IMG/VR virus record: IMGVR_UViG_3300030503_000566
Location: 21,558-85,557 of that record
From: a virus
Reading direction: 5' to 3' (one strand)
Length of the DNA: 64,000 nt
Made by a program: the position numbers and the translations under genes. Shown piece by piece: positions 1,976-54,017 of this stretch. Under the pieces are notes generated by a model. The model was not told the origin of the DNA. It worked only from the letters and a program-made list of their open reading frames with translations, and did no database searches. The first letter of the stretch is position 1; each line of letters starts with the position of its first letter.

Positions 1976-3033
1976 TCCTTTTCTTTTAATAAGAATTGAT
2001 TAGATATTACCTTAAACGAAATTGTCCTCTCTAAGTTTCTCAACACCAAGCCCTCTCTTGAGGTTTTAGGGTTGAGCACTGATGGACCATCAGCAAGTTT
2101 AATCAAATCTTCAATTTCTTCTGGTAGTTCAAATCTATCACTTAAAAAAGGTACGTGCTCTATTTGTAGTAGGCCACAATAGTTTTGGAATTTAAACATA
2201 TTCATATATTGTTGATTGTCAATATCAAATATGTTAAAAGCTTTAATTGTATTACCTTTAAGATTATAAGGATTTCCTTGAATACCTTCACCTATTAATT
2301 CCCCTTGGAGGCAAATATTCTCATTAATTCCTCTCATATATTCTTCCAACCTTAAATTTCTGGTAGCTTTCCAAAATGCATTTCCTTCAGTTTCAATCAA
2401 TTCTAGGTTCCTACTACATACACCAAAAGTATCATTATTTAGATAACAGGTAAAGGAGGAACCATCTAATTTCTCACTGACATAATATTTACTCTTCTTT
2501 AAATTCTCATATATCCCTGAGAGATTTTGTATCCTCTCCTCATCTGTTTTCCTAAGGAAAGCTGGAAAATTACCTTTTACTTTACCCCCTAGTCGTGCGG
2601 GTACCGGTGGGTCCCACTTAACTACTCCTAGCTCATCAGTTACGTCATTCCCAATGTTAAATCCATCTCTTACAATATAATTTTCTGCACAGTCGCAGTA
2701 TCTTTTATCTGGTAAAATACTAATATCTGGTAAAATACTAACTGGTAATACCAACCCTTGAGATATTTGCCCCCTAAGTTTAATAGTTTTTAGTCTTAAA
2801 CCCTCTATATCCCCCATTTTTCTATAGGAGTTCTTCTTCAAAAACTCATACTTCTCCTCTAATGGTAGGAAGCTATCTACCTCAAAGTATACACAGAGAT
2901 CTCCTACCTTAAATTCTCCTTTTTTTACTACTACCTTCCATCCCCTGACTGTCGCAACCTCTATATTATCAGAATTTGGTATTTCTTCCAAATTCACTAT
3001 CTTTTCAATTGTTGCTAATTTTCTCTCTTCCAT
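1972..3033 (-). CDS. RNA ligase, DRB0094/Rnl-like family
   Basis: A 353-residue ATP-dependent RNA ligase. Motif I is SEKLDGSSF with the adenylated lysine at about K188. A motif III-like segment follows (QGELIGEG), then motif IV EGLVLR and motif V SFKVISNQFLLK near the C-terminus. The N-terminal 140 residues form the OB-fold-like extension typical of the DRB0094 (TIGR02306) family. Such ligases seal nicked RNA, for example tRNAs cut by host anticodon nucleases. An in-frame duplication repeats ISILPD at about residues 99-109. The gene overlaps the glycosyltransferase by 29 bases and the helicase by 4. Confidence 0.87.
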   Translation of the reverse strand: MEERKLATIEKIVNLEEIPNSDNIEVATVRGWKVVVKKGEFKVGDLCVYFEVDSFLPLEEKYEFLKKNSYRKMGDIEGLRLKTIKLRGQISQGLVLPVSILPDISILPDKRYCDCAENYIVRDGFNIGNDVTDELGVVKWDPPVPARLGGKVKGNFPAFLRKTDEERIQNLSGIYENLKKSKYYVSEKLDGSSFTCYLNNDTFGVCSRNLELIETEGNAFWKATRNLRLEEYMRGINENICLQGELIGEGIQGNPYNLKGNTIKAFNIFDIDNQQYMNMFKFQNYCGLLQIEHVPFLSDRFELPEEIEDLIKLADGPSVLNPKTSREGLVLRNLERTISFKVISNQFLLKEKE

Positions 3034-3736
3034 TATTTTCTAAGGTACTTTTATATATTAAAACTTTCCTAGTATCACTTGCTAAATGACCTAGATGTAC
3101 ATACATATCATATGCTTTATGATCTGGATCAGCTAATTTCTCACACTCTAGGTATAGAGCATCTTTTACCGCCTTGCCATTAGAATAATGTTTATGTTCA
3201 ATTATTATATCGGCAAAATAATGGATGTTATTAATCCTTATACCTAAATCTTTCCAATAATTGTCTATATAGAAATGAGTCAATGTGGGAGGAGCCATGG
3301 ACCCAACAGCTTCAACTATCTCTCTATGGATGAAGATATTATTAGGGAGTATCTCCCCTTGTAAAAGATCATTACAATAAACAATACCCCTATTCTCCTC
3401 TATCTTATTTACTACTCTATCTTCCCAGTTTTCAGTTTGAAAAACACAATCATCCCCCATAAATGCAACACCTATAGAGGGACCAAAGTCTCCTCTTATA
3501 ATTCCTTCAGCTACAATATTTAGCTTAGGTGTTAGCATATATCTTTTATCCAAAACTACTACAGTTACTCCCATCCTCACCTCTTCAAATAACCTTTTAT
3601 ATTTATTTGTTTCGTCTTTATCTATCACTACTAACATCTCTGTCCTCTCACCCCTAGTTTTAGTATAGCTATCTATTAGATCCCATAAAGACTCTCTACC
3701 TCCTCTTGAGGGTACTATAATAAATACTTTCTTCAT
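3005..3736 (-). CDS. GT-A fold glycosyltransferase-like protein
   Basis: A 243-residue protein with the opening strand of GT-A nucleotide-sugar transferases (KVFIIVPSRGG), then MLVVIDKDE, and an acidic FMGDDC motif near residue 94 that resembles the metal-binding DxD. The aromatic segment before the C-terminus (HFYIDNYW) is also usual for family 2-type enzymes. It probably moves a sugar to a phage or host acceptor; candidates are phage DNA, virion protein or surface glycan. It sits inside a replication operon between the RNA ligase and a winged-helix-like protein, which makes DNA a possible acceptor, but that is a guess. Confidence 0.68.
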   Translation of the reverse strand: MKKVFIIVPSRGGRESLWDLIDSYTKTRGERTEMLVVIDKDETNKYKRLFEEVRMGVTVVVLDKRYMLTPKLNIVAEGIIRGDFGPSIGVAFMGDDCVFQTENWEDRVVNKIEENRGIVYCNDLLQGEILPNNIFIHREIVEAVGSMAPPTLTHFYIDNYWKDLGIRINNIHYFADIIIEHKHYSNGKAVKDALYLECEKLADPDHKAYDMYVHLGHLASDTRKVLIYKSTLENNGREKISNN

Positions 3737-4419
3737 ATATCAATCCTTTTTGTTATTGCATCAACTGTTAATACTGCTTCCGGTGTTCTAAGTAGCTCAA
3801 TAAATGGCTCAAATGTCCTCTGATTTAAATACGTTAGGCTGTTCTGAAAATAAGACATCTTGTTATGTCCTACTCTTATACTTTCTTCCATCTTTTGTGT
3901 CTTCTCTAACTCCAAGGCACCTATCATCTCCTCTATAGTATATTCACCCTCCGTAAGTATTTTGTGTATCTTTGGTATACATTGCTCTTTATTCTGCCTG
4001 AGGGTTCTACTACCTTTAAATTGTTTACCTTTATAGGTAAAGTTATCAGTTCCCGGATATGCTTTCCACCATAAGTCGAAATTGTTCACTATAAGCTCCT
4101 GCTTTTCTCTTTTCTTCTTCACTATAGATATATTGCCTATTCCAATATCTGATAGTAGTTGATTCCCCGAAGGTAAGATTTCTCCTATAGCCGAAAGGTA
4201 TCCCTTCCTTATTAATGTTTGCTTCCATGATTCTCCTCTACCTGCATTTATATGTTTAGTTAAATCAGTCCCCTGAGCAAATCCCTCTAGTATGAAAATA
4301 TGATTTAAATCAATTCCCAACTGAAGGATTTGCTCAAAGGTCTTACTATTGATTGGAATTATGCTCTTTTCTTCCTGTAAATCTAGCGCTACGCCAGTTT
4401 GTTCTTCCATAGTGTACAA
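3733..4419 (-). CDS. possible replication accessory protein with winged-helix-like N-terminus
   Basis: A 228-residue protein. Residues 25-95 read like a winged helix (QILQLGIDLNH, WKQTLIRKGYL, GNQLLSDIGI). The second half has a Trp/Tyr-rich start (FDLWWKAYPG) and a helix-rich region ending in HNKMSYFQNSLTYLNQ. Two-domain proteins of this kind occur beside phage replicative helicases as initiator or loader factors. No catalytic motif is visible. It overlaps the glycosyltransferase by 4 bases (ATGA). A second in-frame ATG lies three codons downstream of the chosen start. Confidence 0.55.
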   Translation of the reverse strand: MYTMEEQTGVALDLQEEKSIIPINSKTFEQILQLGIDLNHIFILEGFAQGTDLTKHINAGRGESWKQTLIRKGYLSAIGEILPSGNQLLSDIGIGNISIVKKKREKQELIVNNFDLWWKAYPGTDNFTYKGKQFKGSRTLRQNKEQCIPKIHKILTEGEYTIEEMIGALELEKTQKMEESIRVGHNKMSYFQNSLTYLNQRTFEPFIELLRTPEAVLTVDAITKRIDI

Positions 4420-4454
4420 ATTTACTACGCTTTTTCATAGGTAACAAAACTACT

Positions 4455-5189
4455 TTATATACTTTCTCCTGATCCCCATCTTTTTCTAAATTCTCTATCT
4501 CCATCAATTTCTGACTGCTCTTTATCTGCCATTCCACAGGAGTCATCTCCAATCCAGTATGCTCTACCTGCTGCATGTGTTGTTCCTCCTCCATGACTTG
4601 CTGCCATAGGATATCCTGCTGCATCTGGTCTTCTGATATTATCAGGGCCCTCTCCTGTTGAGGTAACATCTCCCAATCTTGAGAGAGCCACACGATTTTC
4701 ATGTCCTTGGAGTTTATCATATTCTACAACTGTTAGATCCATATCCTTCAAATTGTCATTCATAATGGAGGAAACCATGGGTTGAAAAGCTCCTGCAAGG
4801 CCACACCCAACCCAAGGAAGACCTATCTTTTTTCCTGCATAAGTGAAGTTAATCTTCTTACAGATAACTGCAAATGCATCATAATCAAATGGTATATCAC
4901 ATCCGGGGGAAATATCTCCGGGCCACATTTGAGTATACATGTTGAGAATCACAAAGCTAGACTTTTCATCATTATAATAGAATGCACTATAATTTCCCAT
5001 CATGTCAATATAGTTGATCCCCGCATATCTTCTATATTCTCGATCTACTATATAAGCATCAGGAAACCTATGTGCTATCTGTGCAGCTATCCCTGCCCCC
5101 ATCACATTTTGGGTGTTACAACCATGTCCTATAAGGTCAAATTGGTTTTGTAAAGCGAGAGTAATTAGATTACCTTTAATGATTCTCAT
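4455..5189 (-). CDS. macro-domain protein (ADP-ribose-binding fold) with C-terminal extension
   Basis: Residues 1-158 form a macro domain: GNLITLA at 6-12, the ligand-binding loop GHGCNTQNVMGAGIA at 21-35, and LPWVGCGLAGAF at 124-135. Macro domains bind or hydrolyse ADP-ribose derivatives. The remaining 86 residues are Gly/Ala/Asp-rich with no known fold. A second leftward open frame (4346-4720) overlaps this tail, but the macro-domain frame keeps the AT-rich third codon positions of the genome there and the other frame is G-rich at third positions, so the extension is treated as real. It overlaps the upstream gene by 14 bases. Confidence 0.82.
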   Translation of the reverse strand: MRIIKGNLITLALQNQFDLIGHGCNTQNVMGAGIAAQIAHRFPDAYIVDREYRRYAGINYIDMMGNYSAFYYNDEKSSFVILNMYTQMWPGDISPGCDIPFDYDAFAVICKKINFTYAGKKIGLPWVGCGLAGAFQPMVSSIMNDNLKDMDLTVVEYDKLQGHENRVALSRLGDVTSTGEGPDNIRRPDAAGYPMAASHGGGTTHAAGRAYWIGDDSCGMADKEQSEIDGDREFRKRWGSGESI

Positions 5190-5592
5190 TTTTGATAGTT
5201 TTAACGATTTTATAATAAATGTACTGAGGAAATTCTCCGAACACCCATAGTGTTACATCAGAAAGCCATAAATATTTACTGTTATAGCCTGTATAATATT
5301 TACCAGTGATAGTGGGAATATAATCTGCCCTAATGAGATATTCCCAGTTGTGTGGTACAAATGCTGGCAATTTGTCGTGGATTCTGATTTCTTGAATATT
5401 AGGTGTTATAAGGAGGGTTATTTCATTCTCATTATCAGTTGTAGATGCTAGTTCGGCAAGGAATTTATCAGCCCCTAAAACCATCTGTAAATCAGCTTTG
5501 CTAGCTCCTAATACCTTCATATCCTCTAAATAATTAGGTATATCAGCATACCACACTCCATCTGGTTCTTTGTAGAATCTTATTTCTTGCAT
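5176..5592 (-). CDS. hypothetical protein, 138 aa
   Basis: A compact protein with an aromatic N-terminus (FYKEPDGVWYADIPNYL) followed by KADLQMVLGADKFLAELA and a beta-rich second half. The pattern of Trp-Tyr-Asp then a GAD-containing helix resembles a small family of uncharacterised bacterial and phage proteins, but I cannot name it surely. It is coupled to the macro-domain gene (14-base overlap), which may hint at a shared role. Confidence 0.62.
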   Translation of the reverse strand: MQEIRFYKEPDGVWYADIPNYLEDMKVLGASKADLQMVLGADKFLAELASTTDNENEITLLITPNIQEIRIHDKLPAFVPHNWEYLIRADYIPTITGKYYTGYNSKYLWLSDVTLWVFGEFPQYIYYKIVKTIKNENH

Positions 5593-5681
5593 TATAGATG
5601 ATGTATATATTTAGAGAATATCCCTAGTAAAACGAGGATTGAGGAGCCTATTAAGAAATAGATTATGCTTTTTTTATTCAT
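5592..5681 (-). CDS. single-span membrane micro-protein, 29 aa
   Basis: ATG at 5681 and TAA at 5592. The peptide starts MNKKS, has one hydrophobic stretch (IIYFLIGSSILVLLGIF) and ends in a short polar tail. Positive residues precede the span, so the N-terminus should be cytoplasmic. The start overlaps the end of the 93-residue gene by 8 bases and the stop abuts the next gene, which fits a true operon member. Confidence 0.5.
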   Translation of the reverse strand: MNKKSIIYFLIGSSILVLLGIFSKYIHHL

Positions 5682-5955
5682 GTTTAATGTTATTTTGTTC
5701 AAGATATTGTAATACTGCTAAATATGCATCCACCTCCCCCCTCTCATTAAAAGGAAAAGTCTTTCTAAAATAGTTTTTATCCCCCTTTCTTCCATATACC
5801 GCTGTCCATAAAGGGTGTCTTCCTTTTCTCATACCACTTACACCTACCCCATTCTGCATAGTATAAACATATTTATACCTAGAGGTAATTCTTACTCCCA
5901 TTCTATTTGCTTCCCATAAAAATTGAAGCTGATTTACTCCTTGTGGTATTACCAT
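5674..5955 (-). CDS. AP2-like small DNA-binding protein (tentative)
   Basis: A 93-residue basic protein. Residues 25-85 have the rhythm of AP2/integrase-type DNA-binding folds: repeated aromatic strands (YKYVYTMQNGV), PLWTAVYGRKG, FRKTFPFNERGE, then a helix DAYLAVLQYLE. Such domains occur alone or at the ends of phage homing endonucleases. It lies immediately downstream of the polymerase gene (7-base overlap). The fold assignment comes from pattern only. Confidence 0.5.
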   Translation of the reverse strand: MVIPQGVNQLQFLWEANRMGVRITSRYKYVYTMQNGVGVSGMRKGRHPLWTAVYGRKGDKNYFRKTFPFNERGEVDAYLAVLQYLEQNNIKHE

Positions 5956-8054
5956 AAAGTCTGTTGATTGGGATTATGAATACTCTTTTTGCCTTTCTTT
6001 TGACCTCTTTCAATACTATCTATGAATTCGTGAGCCGCTTCAAGATAGTATTTTTCACATACTCCTCTTTCTTTAAAAGTGGCTGATCCATAGTTATTAC
6101 ACTCTGTTGTTCTCCAATAACTTTGATCTCTAGCCTCACAATTGCTGATTTGGGGACCAGTAGCTTCACTACCCTCATTCTTAACTTTAATAAGAAGCTT
6201 TCCCTCATTGGATACATAATATCTAACAACCCTATTGTATTTGGTAATGTCCTTGCCAGAGGAATCTGTTGCTTCGTAGTGATAGTTTCTAGAAGCTTTG
6301 AGACCAATACAGAAGTCTGATATGTCTTCATAGGACTTAAGATAATCTTCTGGTGATACTCCTTTGGTAAAATACTGTTCATATATTAATGGTAGGATTC
6401 TCCTACTAGGATTCTTATTTAATTCAAACTCTGTCATAAAATCACCCTTCTTCTTCACTTTTCCCTCTATAGGCATAGCGATATAATCATTTACTGATTT
6501 CTGTACCATTTTGGAGTACTCTGTAAACTCTAGTGCTCCAAGTAATTGGCCCTCAACTATTGGCATTTGTACCTTTTTCTCCCATGCATGACAAATCTCA
6601 TAGTATTTATCAAGCTTGTTTTTATCAAAGAGACAAACAATACCATCAGTATTGGCACTAACTACATGTATACCGCCTTCTACTTCAAGAGCTTCAATTA
6701 GCATTAAGATTTCAAATTGATTACCAATAGTGCAGCTAAACGCAGCAAAAGGATCATATTGCCAATTAGTAGGCTCATTGAGCTTACCGAAGCCCCCCCC
6801 ATTCAAACTCAATTTGAGCATCTCTGCTACTCCTTTAGCTCGTTTATCAGTTTTACCCCTCGCTTTATATGATATACGTCGTACAATAGTGCTACCATAC
6901 ATAGTAAGCCATTCAGGACCCAAATGTGAGGGGAAGAGCTTGCGTTTGAATATGGCACAGGGATACTGACTCCCAATGTCAGCGTCCATAAGATGCTCGC
7001 TCTCAGATGGTATAAGAGTTCTATTTTTTTCATTGCTATGCAAGCCTCCTCTGGCTAGTGTGTATATAGTTCCATTAAATGTAAATTTGAAGAATTGGCT
7101 TCTTTTTTTACCGTCTTTGTCTTTTTTATCCCTTAGTTCTACTTTAACAGGTCCAATCCTCTCCAATAAATCCCTAAAAGCCGGAGTAGTAAAATTAATG
7201 TAATTAGGGATGCAATCACGATAAGTAAAACCTTTTCTAGCTTTTCTATTCTTTTTGAGATCATATAAAACTCTTTCATTTTGGATCTTTTTGAGCTTCA
7301 TATACCCCAGTTTATTCAACTCGTCTCCTATTTTCACATCACTATAGTTCATAGCCTCTGGGGGTAGGTTGAACTCTGTGATAATGTCAATTCTATCCTG
7401 TATCTTGTTTTTACCCTTATACACTTCATTTTCAACATTTCCTAGGGTATAATCCAGCAATTTACAAGTAGCCTTAACATCATTCCTTCTATAGTGATCT
7501 GTCATCTCAAACTCTTTGGGCCCCCATAGCCTATCCTTCGGAACCCTATGATTTCCAATCCATTCCCACTCTACGTGAGGTAGGGGCATTTCCTCTATAT
7601 CCTCCATATCCATAGTGTACTCACACCACTTAAGAGAAGTACTACGGGCATCATTATCAAAGTGATGTATTTTGAATAGATCCATTTGTTTTGCCCATAA
7701 GTACTTCTCTCTATATGGAGGGAATAAACCATTATTAGTCAAATCAATGACATCAGTAGCAAACTGCCAGATTAAGGCACATATCTCAGCCCCTGTTTTA
7801 TCTACCCATCTCTCTTGGTTATCAAGTACAAATTGGCAAACCTGAGCGTCAAATTGTACATTATTATAGCCGCACCAATAATTTACAGAAATATCCTGAA
7901 GAGCTTTACAAATACTATCAATTTGATTAGTGAATCTATTGATTCTCAAATCTAAAGGATTCTTAAATCCCGGGTCACTAATAGTAATAGAAAATTCTTC
8001 GAAGAGTGTTTCGATGTCATGGACCTTAATTATTAATTCATTCCAAGCTTTCAT
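5949..8054 (-). CDS. family B DNA polymerase
   Basis: A 701-residue replicative polymerase. The 3'-5' exonuclease shows Exo I HDIET (12-16), Exo II YNNVQFDAQV (63-72) and Exo III YRRNDV (188-193). The polymerase shows motif A MDADIGSQYP (356-365), motif B KLSLNGGGFGK (414-424) and motif C SANTDGI (466-472). Motif A has Gly-Ser-Gln where SLYP is usual, and motif C has TDG in place of DTDS, as in protein-primed-like and crAss-like polymerases. It is shorter than T4-type PolB enzymes. It would copy the genome together with the DnaB-like helicase encoded downstream in the same operon. Confidence 0.9.
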   Translation of the reverse strand: MKAWNELIIKVHDIETLFEEFSITISDPGFKNPLDLRINRFTNQIDSICKALQDISVNYWCGYNNVQFDAQVCQFVLDNQERWVDKTGAEICALIWQFATDVIDLTNNGLFPPYREKYLWAKQMDLFKIHHFDNDARSTSLKWCEYTMDMEDIEEMPLPHVEWEWIGNHRVPKDRLWGPKEFEMTDHYRRNDVKATCKLLDYTLGNVENEVYKGKNKIQDRIDIITEFNLPPEAMNYSDVKIGDELNKLGYMKLKKIQNERVLYDLKKNRKARKGFTYRDCIPNYINFTTPAFRDLLERIGPVKVELRDKKDKDGKKRSQFFKFTFNGTIYTLARGGLHSNEKNRTLIPSESEHLMDADIGSQYPCAIFKRKLFPSHLGPEWLTMYGSTIVRRISYKARGKTDKRAKGVAEMLKLSLNGGGFGKLNEPTNWQYDPFAAFSCTIGNQFEILMLIEALEVEGGIHVVSANTDGIVCLFDKNKLDKYYEICHAWEKKVQMPIVEGQLLGALEFTEYSKMVQKSVNDYIAMPIEGKVKKKGDFMTEFELNKNPSRRILPLIYEQYFTKGVSPEDYLKSYEDISDFCIGLKASRNYHYEATDSSGKDITKYNRVVRYYVSNEGKLLIKVKNEGSEATGPQISNCEARDQSYWRTTECNNYGSATFKERGVCEKYYLEAAHEFIDSIERGQKKGKKSIHNPNQQTLW

Positions 8055-31000: not shown

Positions 31001-31804
31001 ATGGCAAGTACTTTCAGCGTAAAAGGTTATTGGAAACATAAGAAATTAGGTAGGAAGGCTGTATCAAAAGCACCTACCTTAAAACTATCTAAGTATTTGA
31101 ATTATAAGTCATTACCTCCTATTCCTGCTGAACTAGAGAGGTATACCTCCCTCACAGATTGGACTATGATGGGTAATGATACTTATGGTGATTGTACCTG
31201 TGCTGCTGCTGGACATGGGATTATGGCTTGGACTAGTGAGTACTCCCTCATTACACCTTCAGAAACTTCTGTACTTGCGGTATATACTGCCGTAACTGCT
31301 AAGGAGTGCTCATGTGCAGGTTTTAATGCTACAACTGATGCTAATGATAATGGTTGCATTATTACAGATGTTCAGGATTATTGGAAGACGGTAGGTGTAG
31401 ATGGTCATAAGATTGATTTATATACCTCAGTAGATATTACCAATCATGGTGAGGTTAGAAATGCCACCTACCTATTCGGCCTATTGAATATTGGACTGGC
31501 TCTCCCATTAACTGCTCAGGATCAACCTACTTTATGGGATGTAACTGATACCACCCTTAGTGGTAATGCTGCCCCCGGTTCTTGGGGAGGACATGATGTT
31601 ATTATAGTAGGGTATAACGCAACTACTCTAGATCTGATCACTTGGGGTGAGAGGATTAAGATGACTTGGGCTTTTTGGAATGCTTATGTAGATGAGGCAT
31701 ACGCTATACTTGCACCAGATTGGTTCTCAACCTCTTCTCCACATCACATCTCACCAACAGGCTTAAGCTTGGCACAGTTGGAGGCTGATATGAAACTAGT
31801 TTAA
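31001..31804 (+). CDS. papain-like cysteine peptidase fold protein
   Basis: A 267-residue protein with GNDTYGDCTCAAAGHGIMAW, placing a Cys at the start of a helix as in clan CA peptidases, and SWGGHDVIIVGYN with a catalytic-type His, followed by a Trp-rich strand. Cys-His order and spacing (about 140 residues) match papain-like enzymes. It is Thr/Asn-rich and Cys-rich, so it could be a virion or extracellular enzyme. A proper active-site Asn cannot be fixed by eye. Its end overlaps the antisense HNH gene by 9 bases. Confidence 0.65.
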   Translation: MASTFSVKGYWKHKKLGRKAVSKAPTLKLSKYLNYKSLPPIPAELERYTSLTDWTMMGNDTYGDCTCAAAGHGIMAWTSEYSLITPSETSVLAVYTAVTAKECSCAGFNATTDANDNGCIITDVQDYWKTVGVDGHKIDLYTSVDITNHGEVRNATYLFGLLNIGLALPLTAQDQPTLWDVTDTTLSGNAAPGSWGGHDVIIVGYNATTLDLITWGERIKMTWAFWNAYVDEAYAILAPDWFSTSSPHHISPTGLSLAQLEADMKLV

Positions 31805-32257
31805 ATTATCAAACTCCCAATGACAGTTTGGGCATAAACCTCTTAAATTATCAGGATGGTTTATTTCAGATAATTTTGTATCTGGAGAGAATGAAGATAC
31901 TGCTCTGATATGACAGGCTTCTATATGTTTATCATAACCGCAATTTTGACAAGATACAATTCCTAATTGTTTAAGAATAGATCTAGCTCTACTTCGTACT
32001 AGAGCGAAAGCCGAGCTTCTATGATGTTTGATATAAATTGCTTTTTCTAATGTGAGATCATCTATTTGAGGAATTGTTCTTATACCTCTGCAATCTTCAC
32101 AATATGTCCAAGCAGATCGTATAGATCTGCCACAATTTTTACAATTTCCTTCTTTTTTTCTTCTTGGGTTAAGTTTATTATTGTAACTTACAGAGCAAGA
32201 ACGAGAACAAAATTTAGGATTATTAGTTTCTTCGTTGCAATTTATACAGTTATTCAT
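31796..32257 (-). CDS. HNH homing endonuclease
   Basis: A 153-residue protein, antisense to the surrounding operon. Zinc-finger pairs CINCNEE.., CSRSC, CKNCG and CEDC fill the N-terminal half; the nuclease core is CQNCGYDKHIEACHIRAV and NLRGLCPNCHWEFD. Start MNNCINC at 32257 is chosen because longer starts would run through the tRNA-Arg gene. It is AT-rich. It is most likely a selfish endonuclease gene that settled between the peptidase gene and the tRNA. Confidence 0.85.
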   Translation of the reverse strand: MNNCINCNEETNNPKFCSRSCSVSYNNKLNPRRKKEGNCKNCGRSIRSAWTYCEDCRGIRTIPQIDDLTLEKAIYIKHHRSSAFALVRSRARSILKQLGIVSCQNCGYDKHIEACHIRAVSSFSPDTKLSEINHPDNLRGLCPNCHWEFDNLN

Positions 32258-32258
32258 T

Positions 32259-32331
32259 GGGAGATATAGTTCAACTGGAAAGAATAGAGGCCTTCTAAGC
32301 CCCTGATGATGGATCATCCCCATCTATCTCC
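32259..32331 (+). tRNA. tRNA-Arg (anticodon UCU)
   Basis: Acceptor GGAGATA/TATCTCC is a perfect 7-bp stem; D-stem GTTC/GAAT; the anticodon loop CTTCTAA gives UCU; T-stem GATGG/CCATC is perfect. Unusual points: one A-C mismatch in the anticodon stem and a T-loop reading ATCATCC in place of the usual TTCRANT. It would read AGA/AGG, which this phage uses as its main Arg codons. Confidence 0.72.
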
Positions 32332-32406
32332 TCAAATATATGAATTGAAAGTGAATGTACAAAATTTATTTTTTATTTAGATTCGATTCCCAAATGAGGC
32401 CTTTAT

Positions 32407-32479
32407 GGCGGGTTAGAGAAGTGGTTATCTCGCTAGGCTCATAACCTAGAGATCGTTGGTTCGAATCCTTCACTCGCTA
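32407..32479 (+). tRNA. tRNA-Met-type (anticodon CAU)
   Basis: Acceptor GGCGGGT/ACTCGCT with G:T pairs, D-stem GAGA/TCTC, anticodon stem CTAGG/CCTAG with loop CTCATAA (CAU), T-loop TTCGAAT. The T-stem GTTGG/CCTTC has two T:T mismatches. CAU could mean Met or, after lysidine modification, Ile. Confidence 0.75.
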
Positions 32480-51253: not shown

Positions 51254-52573
51254 ATGAGTATAAGACAAGAATTCTTTGATGATTTGGCTTTAAATGGTAA
51301 GGGTGAGAGGAGTTGGAATTATTTAGCTAAACAATATGGATTTGGAACTGGAGAATCTGCCAGAGGCACATGGAAAAGTTATAGAAAACTTAATGAAATA
51401 GTTGAAAAACAGCAAGTTAACAATTATATAGCAACCCTACAAGATAGGGTAATATCTCTAGAAGAGGATTTAAAAACCTCAAAAGCAGAGTTAGTTTACA
51501 GATCAAAAGATGAAATCAAAACTCTTGAGGAACTTATACAGAGAACAAATATTGACCTTAAAAAGTGGAATATTGTAAGATGGAGGCAAAACTATTGGGG
51601 CAACTTAAATGACCCTCATTGGCAGGTAAGAGCAGAGTTAGAACCTAGAGTCCTAGATAAAGACCCACAACTACAGAAAGAGTTTCTCCTAAATGAGATA
51701 AAAGCTTATCAAAAAGAGTCCTCTTTAAATCTGTTTGGAACTGCTGGAGAGTTTGACTACTCTGATCTCTCAGAATTTCTGGGATTACCCAAAAGAGAAT
51801 ATTTACTAGAGATATCAATACCTGACCTACATATAGGCAAATTAGCATGGGGTCTTGAGAGTGGTGAAGATTATGATACTAAAATAGCTTGTGATCGATT
51901 TAAAGCAGCAGTTAATAATCTCCTTAAACGCACTCCTGTCTCCAGTATTGCTAAAATAGTACTTCCTATTGGCAATGATCTTATCCATATAGATAATGCT
52001 GAGAATCAAACTACTGCCGGTACTCAAGTAGATGCAGATAGTAGATTTGCCAAGATAGTAAAGACAGCAAAGGCACTATTGGTAGAGATAATTGATGAAC
52101 TTAAGCAGATAGCCCCAGTAGAGGTAATTATAGTAAGAGGAAATCATGATAGTACCACAACATTCCTATTAGGAGAAGTGATTGAAGCATGGTTTCACGC
52201 CGATCCTTTAGTTAAAGTAGATAACAGCCCTAAGTGGAGGAAGTATTATCAATATGGTCAAGTAGGTGTACAACTTACTCATGGTGAAAAAGAGAATCAT
52301 CAGGAATTAGGGCTTATATTTGCTACAGAAGAACCCCAACTGTGGGCGGATACTAAGTATAGGTTCTGCAAATTAGGCCACTTCCATAAGACAAAGAAGA
52401 TGAATTATGTATCTGTAGATAACCATCAAGGTTTCCAGATAGAGATACTTCCTTCACTATCAGCAGCAGATGAGTGGCATAGTGCAAAGGGATATATCTC
52501 AAACCCACAAGCTAAAGCTTTTTTATACCATAAAGAAGAGGGTGAAATAGCTGAGTACACATATACAGTATAA
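51254..52573 (+). CDS. calcineurin-like metallophosphoesterase
   Basis: A 439-residue protein. After an N-terminal helical/coiled-coil part (residues 40-110) come the metal-binding motifs SIPDLHIGK (188-196), GNDLIH, RGNHD, LTHGE and GHFHK, the full set of the calcineurin-like family. Homologues (MPP) are conserved in crAss-like phages next to tail-assembly genes. Nucleic-acid or nucleotide phosphodiesters are the likely substrates; it may be DNA- or tail-associated. The stop overlaps the start of the next gene (TAATG). Confidence 0.9.
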   Translation: MSIRQEFFDDLALNGKGERSWNYLAKQYGFGTGESARGTWKSYRKLNEIVEKQQVNNYIATLQDRVISLEEDLKTSKAELVYRSKDEIKTLEELIQRTNIDLKKWNIVRWRQNYWGNLNDPHWQVRAELEPRVLDKDPQLQKEFLLNEIKAYQKESSLNLFGTAGEFDYSDLSEFLGLPKREYLLEISIPDLHIGKLAWGLESGEDYDTKIACDRFKAAVNNLLKRTPVSSIAKIVLPIGNDLIHIDNAENQTTAGTQVDADSRFAKIVKTAKALLVEIIDELKQIAPVEVIIVRGNHDSTTTFLLGEVIEAWFHADPLVKVDNSPKWRKYYQYGQVGVQLTHGEKENHQELGLIFATEEPQLWADTKYRFCKLGHFHKTKKMNYVSVDNHQGFQIEILPSLSAADEWHSAKGYISNPQAKAFLYHKEEGEIAEYTYTV

Positions 52574-53319
52574 TGCCGACAGTTAGAGATGTAATATCAA
52601 ATAAATATTATATTTATCGTCATATAAGAGAAGATAAAAATGAGCCTTTTTATATAGGAATTGGTACTATATGGGGGAAGGACAAAAATTCTAGCTGTGA
52701 TGCCAAGAAGTATGGAAGAGCTTTTGCAAAAATAAATAGAAGTGAATTTTGGAAGAATATTATATCCAAGTCAAATTATACTGTAGAAATTTTAATGGAA
52801 TCTGATAATTTAGATTTTATTAAAAATAAAGAAAGGGAATTTATCATTTTATATGGAAGAAGAGATTTAAAAACTGGTACTTTAGTTAATTTAACAGATG
52901 GTGGAGATGGTATAATAAATCTTTCTGAAATGTCAAGAGATAAAATTAGAAATAAATTATTAGGAAAGAAACTATCAGAAGAACACAGAATAAAATGTGG
53001 AAATGCTAGGAGGGGTTCAAAGCTAGAGGAATGGCACAAGAAAAGAATATCTGAAGCAAATTTAGCTAGGAATAATAAGTCTGGAAACAATCCTCAATCT
53101 AAAGAAGTTTACCAATACAATTTACAAGGAGATTTTGTCAAAAAGTGGAATTGTACAAAAGATATTGAGAGAGAACTGGGTATACCAAATCAAAGAATAT
53201 CAGAAGTTTGTTCTGGTAAAGTATTGACTTATCATGGATGTGTTTGGTCATATACCTTTCTTGGACAAAAAGTTATGATAAAGAAAAAAGGTAAAAGAAA
53301 AGAATTATGCCTACTTTGA
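52573..53319 (+). CDS. GIY-YIG homing endonuclease with NUMOD modules
   Basis: A 248-residue endonuclease: KYYIYRHIREDKNEPFYIGIG is the GIY-YIG core, with Arg/Glu later. NUMOD3-like (RNKLLGKKLSEEHRIK) and NUMOD1/4-like (VYQYNLQGDFVKKWN, then HGCVWSY) DNA-binding modules follow. The first nine residues MPTVRDVIS copy those of the downstream gene (MPTLRSVIS), as if the endonuclease gene was spliced into the 5' end of that gene. AT-rich composition supports foreign origin. It overlaps the next gene by 13 bases. Confidence 0.88.
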   Translation: MPTVRDVISNKYYIYRHIREDKNEPFYIGIGTIWGKDKNSSCDAKKYGRAFAKINRSEFWKNIISKSNYTVEILMESDNLDFIKNKEREFIILYGRRDLKTGTLVNLTDGGDGIINLSEMSRDKIRNKLLGKKLSEEHRIKCGNARRGSKLEEWHKKRISEANLARNNKSGNNPQSKEVYQYNLQGDFVKKWNCTKDIERELGIPNQRISEVCSGKVLTYHGCVWSYTFLGQKVMIKKKGKRKELCLL

Positions 53320-54017
53320 GGAGTGTTATTTCAAGAGTGCGTACAACTAACAAACTCTTATCTAGTGACAATATCATAAGTGATAGAGCCGTGGAAAAGG
53401 AGCTTAAAAGTAAAGCTATTACCTTAATCCGTAGGGAAACTAACTTACGAAGGTTATGGTCTACCTCCACCATCTTCAGTGAAATTCCTTGTCTGGAAAT
53501 GATCCAAGTACCTCTCTCTGAATGCTGTGATTATCATTCTGATAGGGTTGTAGCAAGGAGCAAACATAAATTGCCAGCTATGGCGGAGGGTATTTATGGA
53601 TATCTTATCCAGTGGGTTAGGAATGTAGAGAGAACCACCAAAGAGAGTAAGCGGATAAATGAGATGTCTATTAATAGATATGTGAATTTCCTTGGTATTA
53701 ATCCAAGATATAATAGACTTGTTTACTGGATTGATAACAGATATCTATATTGCTCAAATCCAGATGTACAGGTATTAAGCATCTCTGCCTACTTTGAGGA
53801 CGATATTCCTAAGTATTTATTGTTCCCTGAGTGCAAATGTGACTCAAGAAAACCATCTTATGACGAGTGTAAAAATCCTCTGGATCTACAGTTTAAATGT
53901 CCGGGGTATCTTGAGGACAATTGTGTATCTATGACTTCCAAATATCTAATTGAAACATATTTTAGATTGGTAGATGATAAGACCTCTGATAATAGAGATG
54001 ATGAAACAGTGAAATAA
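53307..54017 (+). CDS. tail-module structural protein, 236 aa
   Basis: Starts MPTLRSVISRVRTT. Helical start, then a beta-rich part with Cys clusters (FPECKCDSRK, DECKNPL, CPGYLEDNC). Homologous in position to the conserved gene between MPP and the IHF-like gene of crAss-like phages; probably a ring or tail protein. Its natural start is followed, one gene upstream, by the homing endonuclease insertion. Confidence 0.65.
   Translation: MPTLRSVISRVRTTNKLLSSDNIISDRAVEKELKSKAITLIRRETNLRRLWSTSTIFSEIPCLEMIQVPLSECCDYHSDRVVARSKHKLPAMAEGIYGYLIQWVRNVERTTKESKRINEMSINRYVNFLGINPRYNRLVYWIDNRYLYCSNPDVQVLSISAYFEDDIPKYLLFPECKCDSRKPSYDECKNPLDLQFKCPGYLEDNCVSMTSKYLIETYFRLVDDKTSDNRDDETVK

Follow-up and report, generated by a model that had tools for sequence, protein, structure and literature searches.

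How can a free-standing homing endonuclease gene, which normally must land between genes, come to lie at the very start of a virion gene that still appears intact? The question is raised by a locus in the 64,000-nt window, the whole stretch of DNA analysed here, which comprises bases 21558–85557 of the 85,557-base IMG/VR virus record IMGVR_UViG_3300030503_000566. A single metagenomic record lies behind the locus. Gene order and matches to the Pfam families CrAss_Ring_2 and CrAss_Ring_1 identify the source phage as crAss-like. The relevant features are listed below; labels such as L066 or L184 used further on designate individual relatives' loci in the comparison set.

51254..52573 (+): upstream gene, a calcineurin-like phosphoesterase/DNA repair exonuclease of 439 aa (phrog_704, E=1.1e-75)
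52573..52600 (+): putative captured Ring2 start ATGCCGACAGTTAGAGATGTAATATCAA, nine codons plus one base, probably now serving the endonuclease as N-terminus and site of translation start, predicted to be disordered
52573..53319 (+): gene of a free-standing GIY-YIG homing endonuclease, 248 aa, with a C-terminal NUMOD1-like DNA-binding region (phrog_314, E=4.8e-20)
52601..53306 (+): body of the endonuclease gene minus the start copy, 28% GC
53307..53319 (+): 13-nt overlap between endonuclease and Ring2, the endonuclease ending ...LCLL-stop within Ring2 codons 1–5
53307..53334 (+): second Ring2 start copy ATGCCTACTTTGAGGAGTGTTATTTCAA, with five of six synonymous codons unlike the captured copy
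53307..54017 (+): gene of Ring protein 2 (Ring2, a tail or virion ring protein), 236 aa, presumably invaded and re-started (CrAss_Ring_2, PF25702)

The Ring2 protein matches the Pfam family with E=2.7e-14 and 53.8 bits, above the curated cut-off of 27. Both junctions of the endonuclease gene are as compact as the first-pass annotation had described them. Upstream, its ATG overlaps the TAA of the phosphoesterase as TAATG; downstream, the gene takes its TGA stop from the second Ring2 start ACTTTGAGG, where ACT TTG AGG in another frame yields TGA. The endonuclease would be translated from the former initiation site of Ring2, in coupling with the stop of the phosphoesterase. Translation of Ring2 is probably coupled in turn to that of the endonuclease because the endonuclease stop falls inside the second Ring2 start. 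The GC content of the endonuclease body contrasts with the ~36% of the neighbouring genes, while the 27-nt tail, a short stretch, has 37%.

The N-terminus of the endonuclease (MPTVRDVIS followed by NKYYIYRHI) and that of Ring2 (MPTLRSVIS followed by RVRTTNK) share seven of nine residues, with 18 of 27 nucleotides identical, and the homology between the two start copies stops at nt 28 (TCAA). This likeness, already remarked upon at first pass, is confirmed as real and beyond chance. With the residue frequencies of ~675 other gene starts, a match of at least 7/9 including the initial M is expected with p ~4e-6 per gene pair, and the endonuclease and Ring2 form the sole 7/9 pair among the 2,415 ORF-start pairs of the window. 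As an independent check, a profile was made without the window phage, from 17 distinct start peptides of Ring2 in other phages; it gives the endonuclease start 11.0 bits (p 9e-5), the best of ~610 unrelated starts reaching 4.9. The companion claim that the DNA of the two copies is clearly related needs correcting: the DNA says no more than the peptide does, since 18/27 nt would be expected if the two peptides had been coded independently (mean 18.0). In fact, the endonuclease start DNA agrees at 22/27 positions with the Ring2 start of L060, at 21/27 with L017 and at 20/27 with L030, compared to 18/27 for its own neighbour. The endonuclease-side copy is on average closer to the family DNA than the second copy (17.1/27 vs 15.9/27), a difference that lies within codon-usage noise (p ~0.1) over a mere 27 nt with saturated synonymous sites. 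Since a Pro at position 2 is common to both copies and occurs in 0 of 64 distinct Ring2 starts of relatives, the two copies probably stem from one lineage. No near relative with >55% identity in Ring2 was found, and a scan of the genome collection for close relatives produced one Ring2 locus, without a recognised phosphoesterase upstream.

The shared peptide appears foreign to the endonuclease. Residues Y15, Y27-I-G29, R49, E87 and N106 are invariant across 27 homologues and constitute the GIY-YIG motif with the catalytic Arg, Glu and Asn. A NUMOD1 motif at residues 177–208 reaches E=0.005 in the window protein, under the Pfam cut-off, but is present in 16 of the 27 homologues (best 1.4e-12), and we count it as the C-terminal DNA-binding region of the enzyme. 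The Pfam GIY-YIG model itself gave no match to the window endonuclease and sequence searches of the PDB with it returned nothing. The AlphaFold model has a mean pLDDT of 82.7, with weak fold matches in the PDB to I-HmuI (E=1.9e-3) and to the GIY-YIG domain of UvrC (E=2.7); its pLDDT is <50 at residues 1–7, ahead of a first strand that starts at residue 12. Homologous endonucleases begin at the catalytic domain or a few residues before it (MAYVYRHI, MKYYLYRHI, MKKYYLYRHI, MENKYYLYRHI). The nine N-terminal residues are extra to the window enzyme because it aligns with these homologues only from NKYYIYRHI onward. It is the sequence of this tail, rather than its length, that is telling, since natural N-terminal tails of 0–11 residues occur in the homologous endonucleases. 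Among 76 of these scanned for a tail resembling the start of the next gene no further case emerged, none carrying a MPTVRDVIS-like tail, and a degenerate pattern combining a Ring2-type start with YxYRHI, run over the whole of IMG/VR, recovered the window itself as control and no other match.

What the site looks like when empty can be seen in the relatives. A junction survey of 160 Ring2 loci from two alignment-based scans, five further loci and the window yielded 113 distinct loci. In 90 of them the phosphoesterase directly adjoins Ring2 (gap −4 to +19), its stop lying on or beside the Ring2 ATG; 46 of these show the exact TAATG overlap that the first-pass annotation had anticipated for relatives lacking the endonuclease. 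An insert is present in 14 distinct loci, window included, and is always a GIY-YIG or HNH endonuclease-like ORF; the remaining loci are without a recognised phosphoesterase at that place. Relatives thus differ by presence or absence of an insert at a fixed site, although the ratio of occupied to empty loci is no unbiased frequency because four occupied loci came through endonuclease queries. The inserts are distributed as follows:

GIY-YIG-type inserts at the joint: window, L086, L092, L097, L158, L221, L066, L224
HNH-type inserts at the joint: L034, L058, L085/L091, L038, L176

L045 carries an HNH gene at the same place on a contig that stops short of the phosphoesterase. Among the inserts are two GIY-YIG types, two HNH types and one HNH enzyme that is extended N-terminally by an HTH-like domain. 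Homing-endonuclease-like genes have repeatedly landed at the phosphoesterase/Ring2 junction of crAss-like phages, which is a hotspot for them and, with its several kinds of endonuclease, would make a good natural test bed for the choice of insertion sites. The other endonucleases at the joint entered around the start codon and carry no copy of the Ring2 start (best 9-residue match 3/9). Start capture is therefore a one-off in the window phage, on top of a recurrent insertion habit, and no general property of the endonuclease family. The first-pass annotation had held that its proposal would suffer if homologous endonucleases and genes lacked the nine-residue match; the endonucleases do lack it while the Ring2 genes possess it, which again is the pattern of a one-off capture.

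The left junction in the window (cagtataATG) resembles native junctions such as that of L184 (aaagtataATG). The window phosphoesterase is nearest to those of L066 (49%) and of the Leptolyngbya phage L005 (46%) and ~30% identical to the rest, while the 80-aa gene upstream is found only in the L013 clade. Since the nearest relatives of the phosphoesterase (L066/L005) and of the flanking genes (L013 clade) conflict, exchange has occurred around the site. The phosphoesterase itself is variable at this place because some relatives are without it (L030, L036, L041, L078, L079, L090), Ring2 there following directly after structural or repeat-rich genes. In L066 the joint is occupied by a Seg-like endonuclease (3354–4015) and Ring2, whose ATG stands right after the endonuclease stop, has apparently lost codon 2 through the insertion (MTARKIVSD vs MATARKIVSD in relatives). 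L124 has a close GIY-YIG relative (2495–3262) on the other side of Ring2, before the next (IHF-like) gene and in a TAATG overlap with the Ring2 stop.

Two other candidates for captured starts had to be rejected. The HNH endonucleases at the joint display a motif M.SN.ISDER that recalls MST.RKLVSD.R, yet it is native to that HNH family since it is internal in L176 (ITDSRNIEINDPNY). In FpV4, KQINPV occurs in both the gp66 and gp65 starts, but here a group I intron splits a gene that is whole in Fpv1. Indeed, FpV4 gp67 and gp65 (L009, 1233–3736) are two exons of one helicase-like gene (cf. L179, Fpv1 gp74), and the unannotated group I intron encodes the endonuclease gp66. In L179 the DNA polymerase gene (3837–6904, Fpv1 gp68–gp70) is annotated in two pieces with the homing endonuclease gp69 between them, possibly representing an intron or a split gene. 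Elsewhere in the window an HNH endonuclease ORF as called (31796–32323, −) is antisense, at its 5′ end, to a tRNA (32260–32332, +); its real start is probably the internal MNNCINC, beside the tRNA pair at 32260–32332 and 32407–32479.

Taken as a whole, the locus is best explained, with moderate confidence, by an endonuclease that entered Ring2 after codon 9 and took its start, while Ring2 kept or received a second, orthologous one. A GIY-YIG gene would have inserted within Ring2 of a crAss-like phage just past codon 9, exchanging its own start codon for the native, in-frame start of Ring2 and acquiring nine Ring2 residues as a loose N-terminal tail. Ring2 would remain intact because its first nine codons recur, spelled differently, right behind the endonuclease. 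The likeliest route would be asymmetric homing. In this scheme an endonuclease-free phage would suffer a break at about nt 28 of Ring2, or one that resection extends to there. Repair to the right of it would use a donor that has the endonuclease together with an intact Ring2; on the left, the broken end would escape trimming as far as the phosphoesterase and be joined to the start of the endonuclease. The product would consist of recipient start, endonuclease and donor Ring2, the left copy being the recipient's own and the right copy the donor's. The start copy, the empty site, the hotspot, the lack of an intron and the lack of the copy in other endonucleases are all observed; the direction of transfer, the repair route and any present cutting activity we infer. 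The first-pass annotation had suggested an insertion at the 5′ end of Ring2 with reuse of its start; reuse is well supported because the captured peptide fits the Ring2 family and homologous endonucleases are without it, and the proposal overall gains partial support. The capture is well supported as a single case, by a presumed route. The single example speaks against the explanation given here, as do the other endonucleases at the joint that lack a copy and the shared Pro2, which would also fit an old duplication in place.

Such an old duplication is the main rival of asymmetric homing. The endonuclease would have landed at the joint without a copy, a later unequal recombination or slippage would have put the Ring2 start at the head of its reading frame, and the copies would then have diverged in one lineage. 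Since all other endonucleases at the joint are without a copy the capture could indeed be secondary, and a Pro2 found only in the two copies fits descent within one lineage. However, a recent duplication is unlikely because the copies share seven of nine residues and yet use different codons at five of the six synonymous positions, with nucleotide identity at the level of independent coding, so that one would have to assume long protein constraint on both copies even though the tail lies outside the endonuclease fold. We thus consider duplication in place possible but rather unlikely. Put more generally, the two copies would be either an old duplication or alleles from two phages.

Resemblance without common descent, whether because the endonuclease tail happens to look like a Ring2 start or because selection for translation initiation made the starts alike, could draw on the natural tails of homologous endonucleases and on a DNA identity no better than the peptides imply. 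It is nevertheless quite improbable: the per-pair chance of ~4e-6 still amounts to only ~6e-4 after some 160 neighbour comparisons, the profile score is far over all unrelated starts, and initiation selection acts on DNA and not on seven shared residues with different codons. A spliced element, intron or intein, with MPTVRDVIS as 5′ exon would join TCA to AGAGTG upon removal and give Ring2 MPTVRDVISRVRTT, and exact removal of 52600–53333 would leave an open Ring2 frame. Rfam at a permissive threshold, though, detects no group I or II intron at E<=5 in 52400–53600, while the endonuclease-bearing group I intron of FpV4 (L009), the positive control, is found at E=8e-9 in the same test. Moreover, coding sequence takes up nearly the whole insert, Ring2 possesses its own complete start and the relatives' endonucleases stand exactly between phosphoesterase and Ring2, which makes splicing highly improbable. 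We attach just as little credence to a mis-assembly that merged two phage variants of the metagenome; the single metagenomic record would allow for it, but neither ORF is broken, the overlaps are compact, the endonuclease has its full length and its conserved catalytic residues, and the gene order matches that of relatives.

On the capture explanation favoured above, an endonuclease would need neither intron nor intein to reside within an essential virion gene, since it takes over the start of that gene and a second start is left behind. A more far-reaching idea, which we regard as doubtful, is that the endonuclease and the recoded nine-codon Ring2 start form one mobile cassette that cuts Ring2 of naive phages near codon 9, inserts there and carries a cleavage-resistant, synonymously recoded replacement start, a natural 'home and rescue' drive. 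If the second start does travel with the endonuclease, nature would have its own version of the recoded-rescue designs of synthetic gene drives, and the terminus-replacing logic of fungal mitochondria would have arisen, mirrored, in phages as well.

In this context it is useful to compare the locus with known systems. T4-like phages harbour free-standing Seg (GIY-YIG) and Mob (HNH) enzymes that lie between essential genes and spread by intronless homing, through break repair and co-conversion of the flanks, cutting hundreds to thousands of bp from their own gene, according to the part of the T4 account available (PMC2988022). The window gene resembles them in being a free-standing phage endonuclease. 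Unlike it, the Seg and Mob genes are described in that part of the account (PMC2988022) with no copied start of an invaded gene, and the insertions into gene interiors that it mentions, mobE in nrdA of Aeh1 and mobA in gene 60 of T4, are presented as insertions into the genes themselves. Homing endonucleases of ICP1 and other phages cluster beside essential genes and mark boundaries of genetic exchange, as stated in the portion of that work available (PMC10448857), and the conflicting relatives of the window phosphoesterase and the genes upstream recall such boundaries; the same portion is concerned with placement and domain shuffling, with no captured gene starts. As in the window, gp66 in the split helicase-like gene of FpV4 is a GIY-YIG-type endonuclease in a phage gene, with the difference that FpV4 has a group I intron and the window none.

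The closest parallel is provided by the mobile ORFs (mORFs) of fungal mitochondria, in Glomus atp6, atp9, cox2 and nad3 and in Allomyces macrogynus atp6, which insert near the 3′ ends of genes and bring a foreign C-terminus such that the gene stays open (PMC3630166). The endonuclease of the Glomus atp9 case is of the GIY-YIG type and the others are LAGLIDADG enzymes (PMC3630166). As in these mORFs, a free-standing endonuclease lies in a gene end that is present in two diverged copies (52573–52600 and 53307–53334 in the window) and the host gene remains open. The window copies are 67% identical in DNA (18/27) and 78% in protein (7/9), compared to 63.5% and 91%, respectively, for the two copies of Glomus atp6 (PMC3630166). 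A description of a 5′ version, with a captured gene start, was not found in the open-access literature. In the fungal elements it is the 3′ end that occurs twice, with the inserted foreign copy placed ahead of the endonuclease. In the window the host is a phage and the 5′ end is duplicated, the first copy serving as the start of the endonuclease. Because the duplicated part is the 5′ end, the window case falls outside the mORF class as described, working like its members without being one of them, and is best viewed as their 5′ mirror image in a phage.
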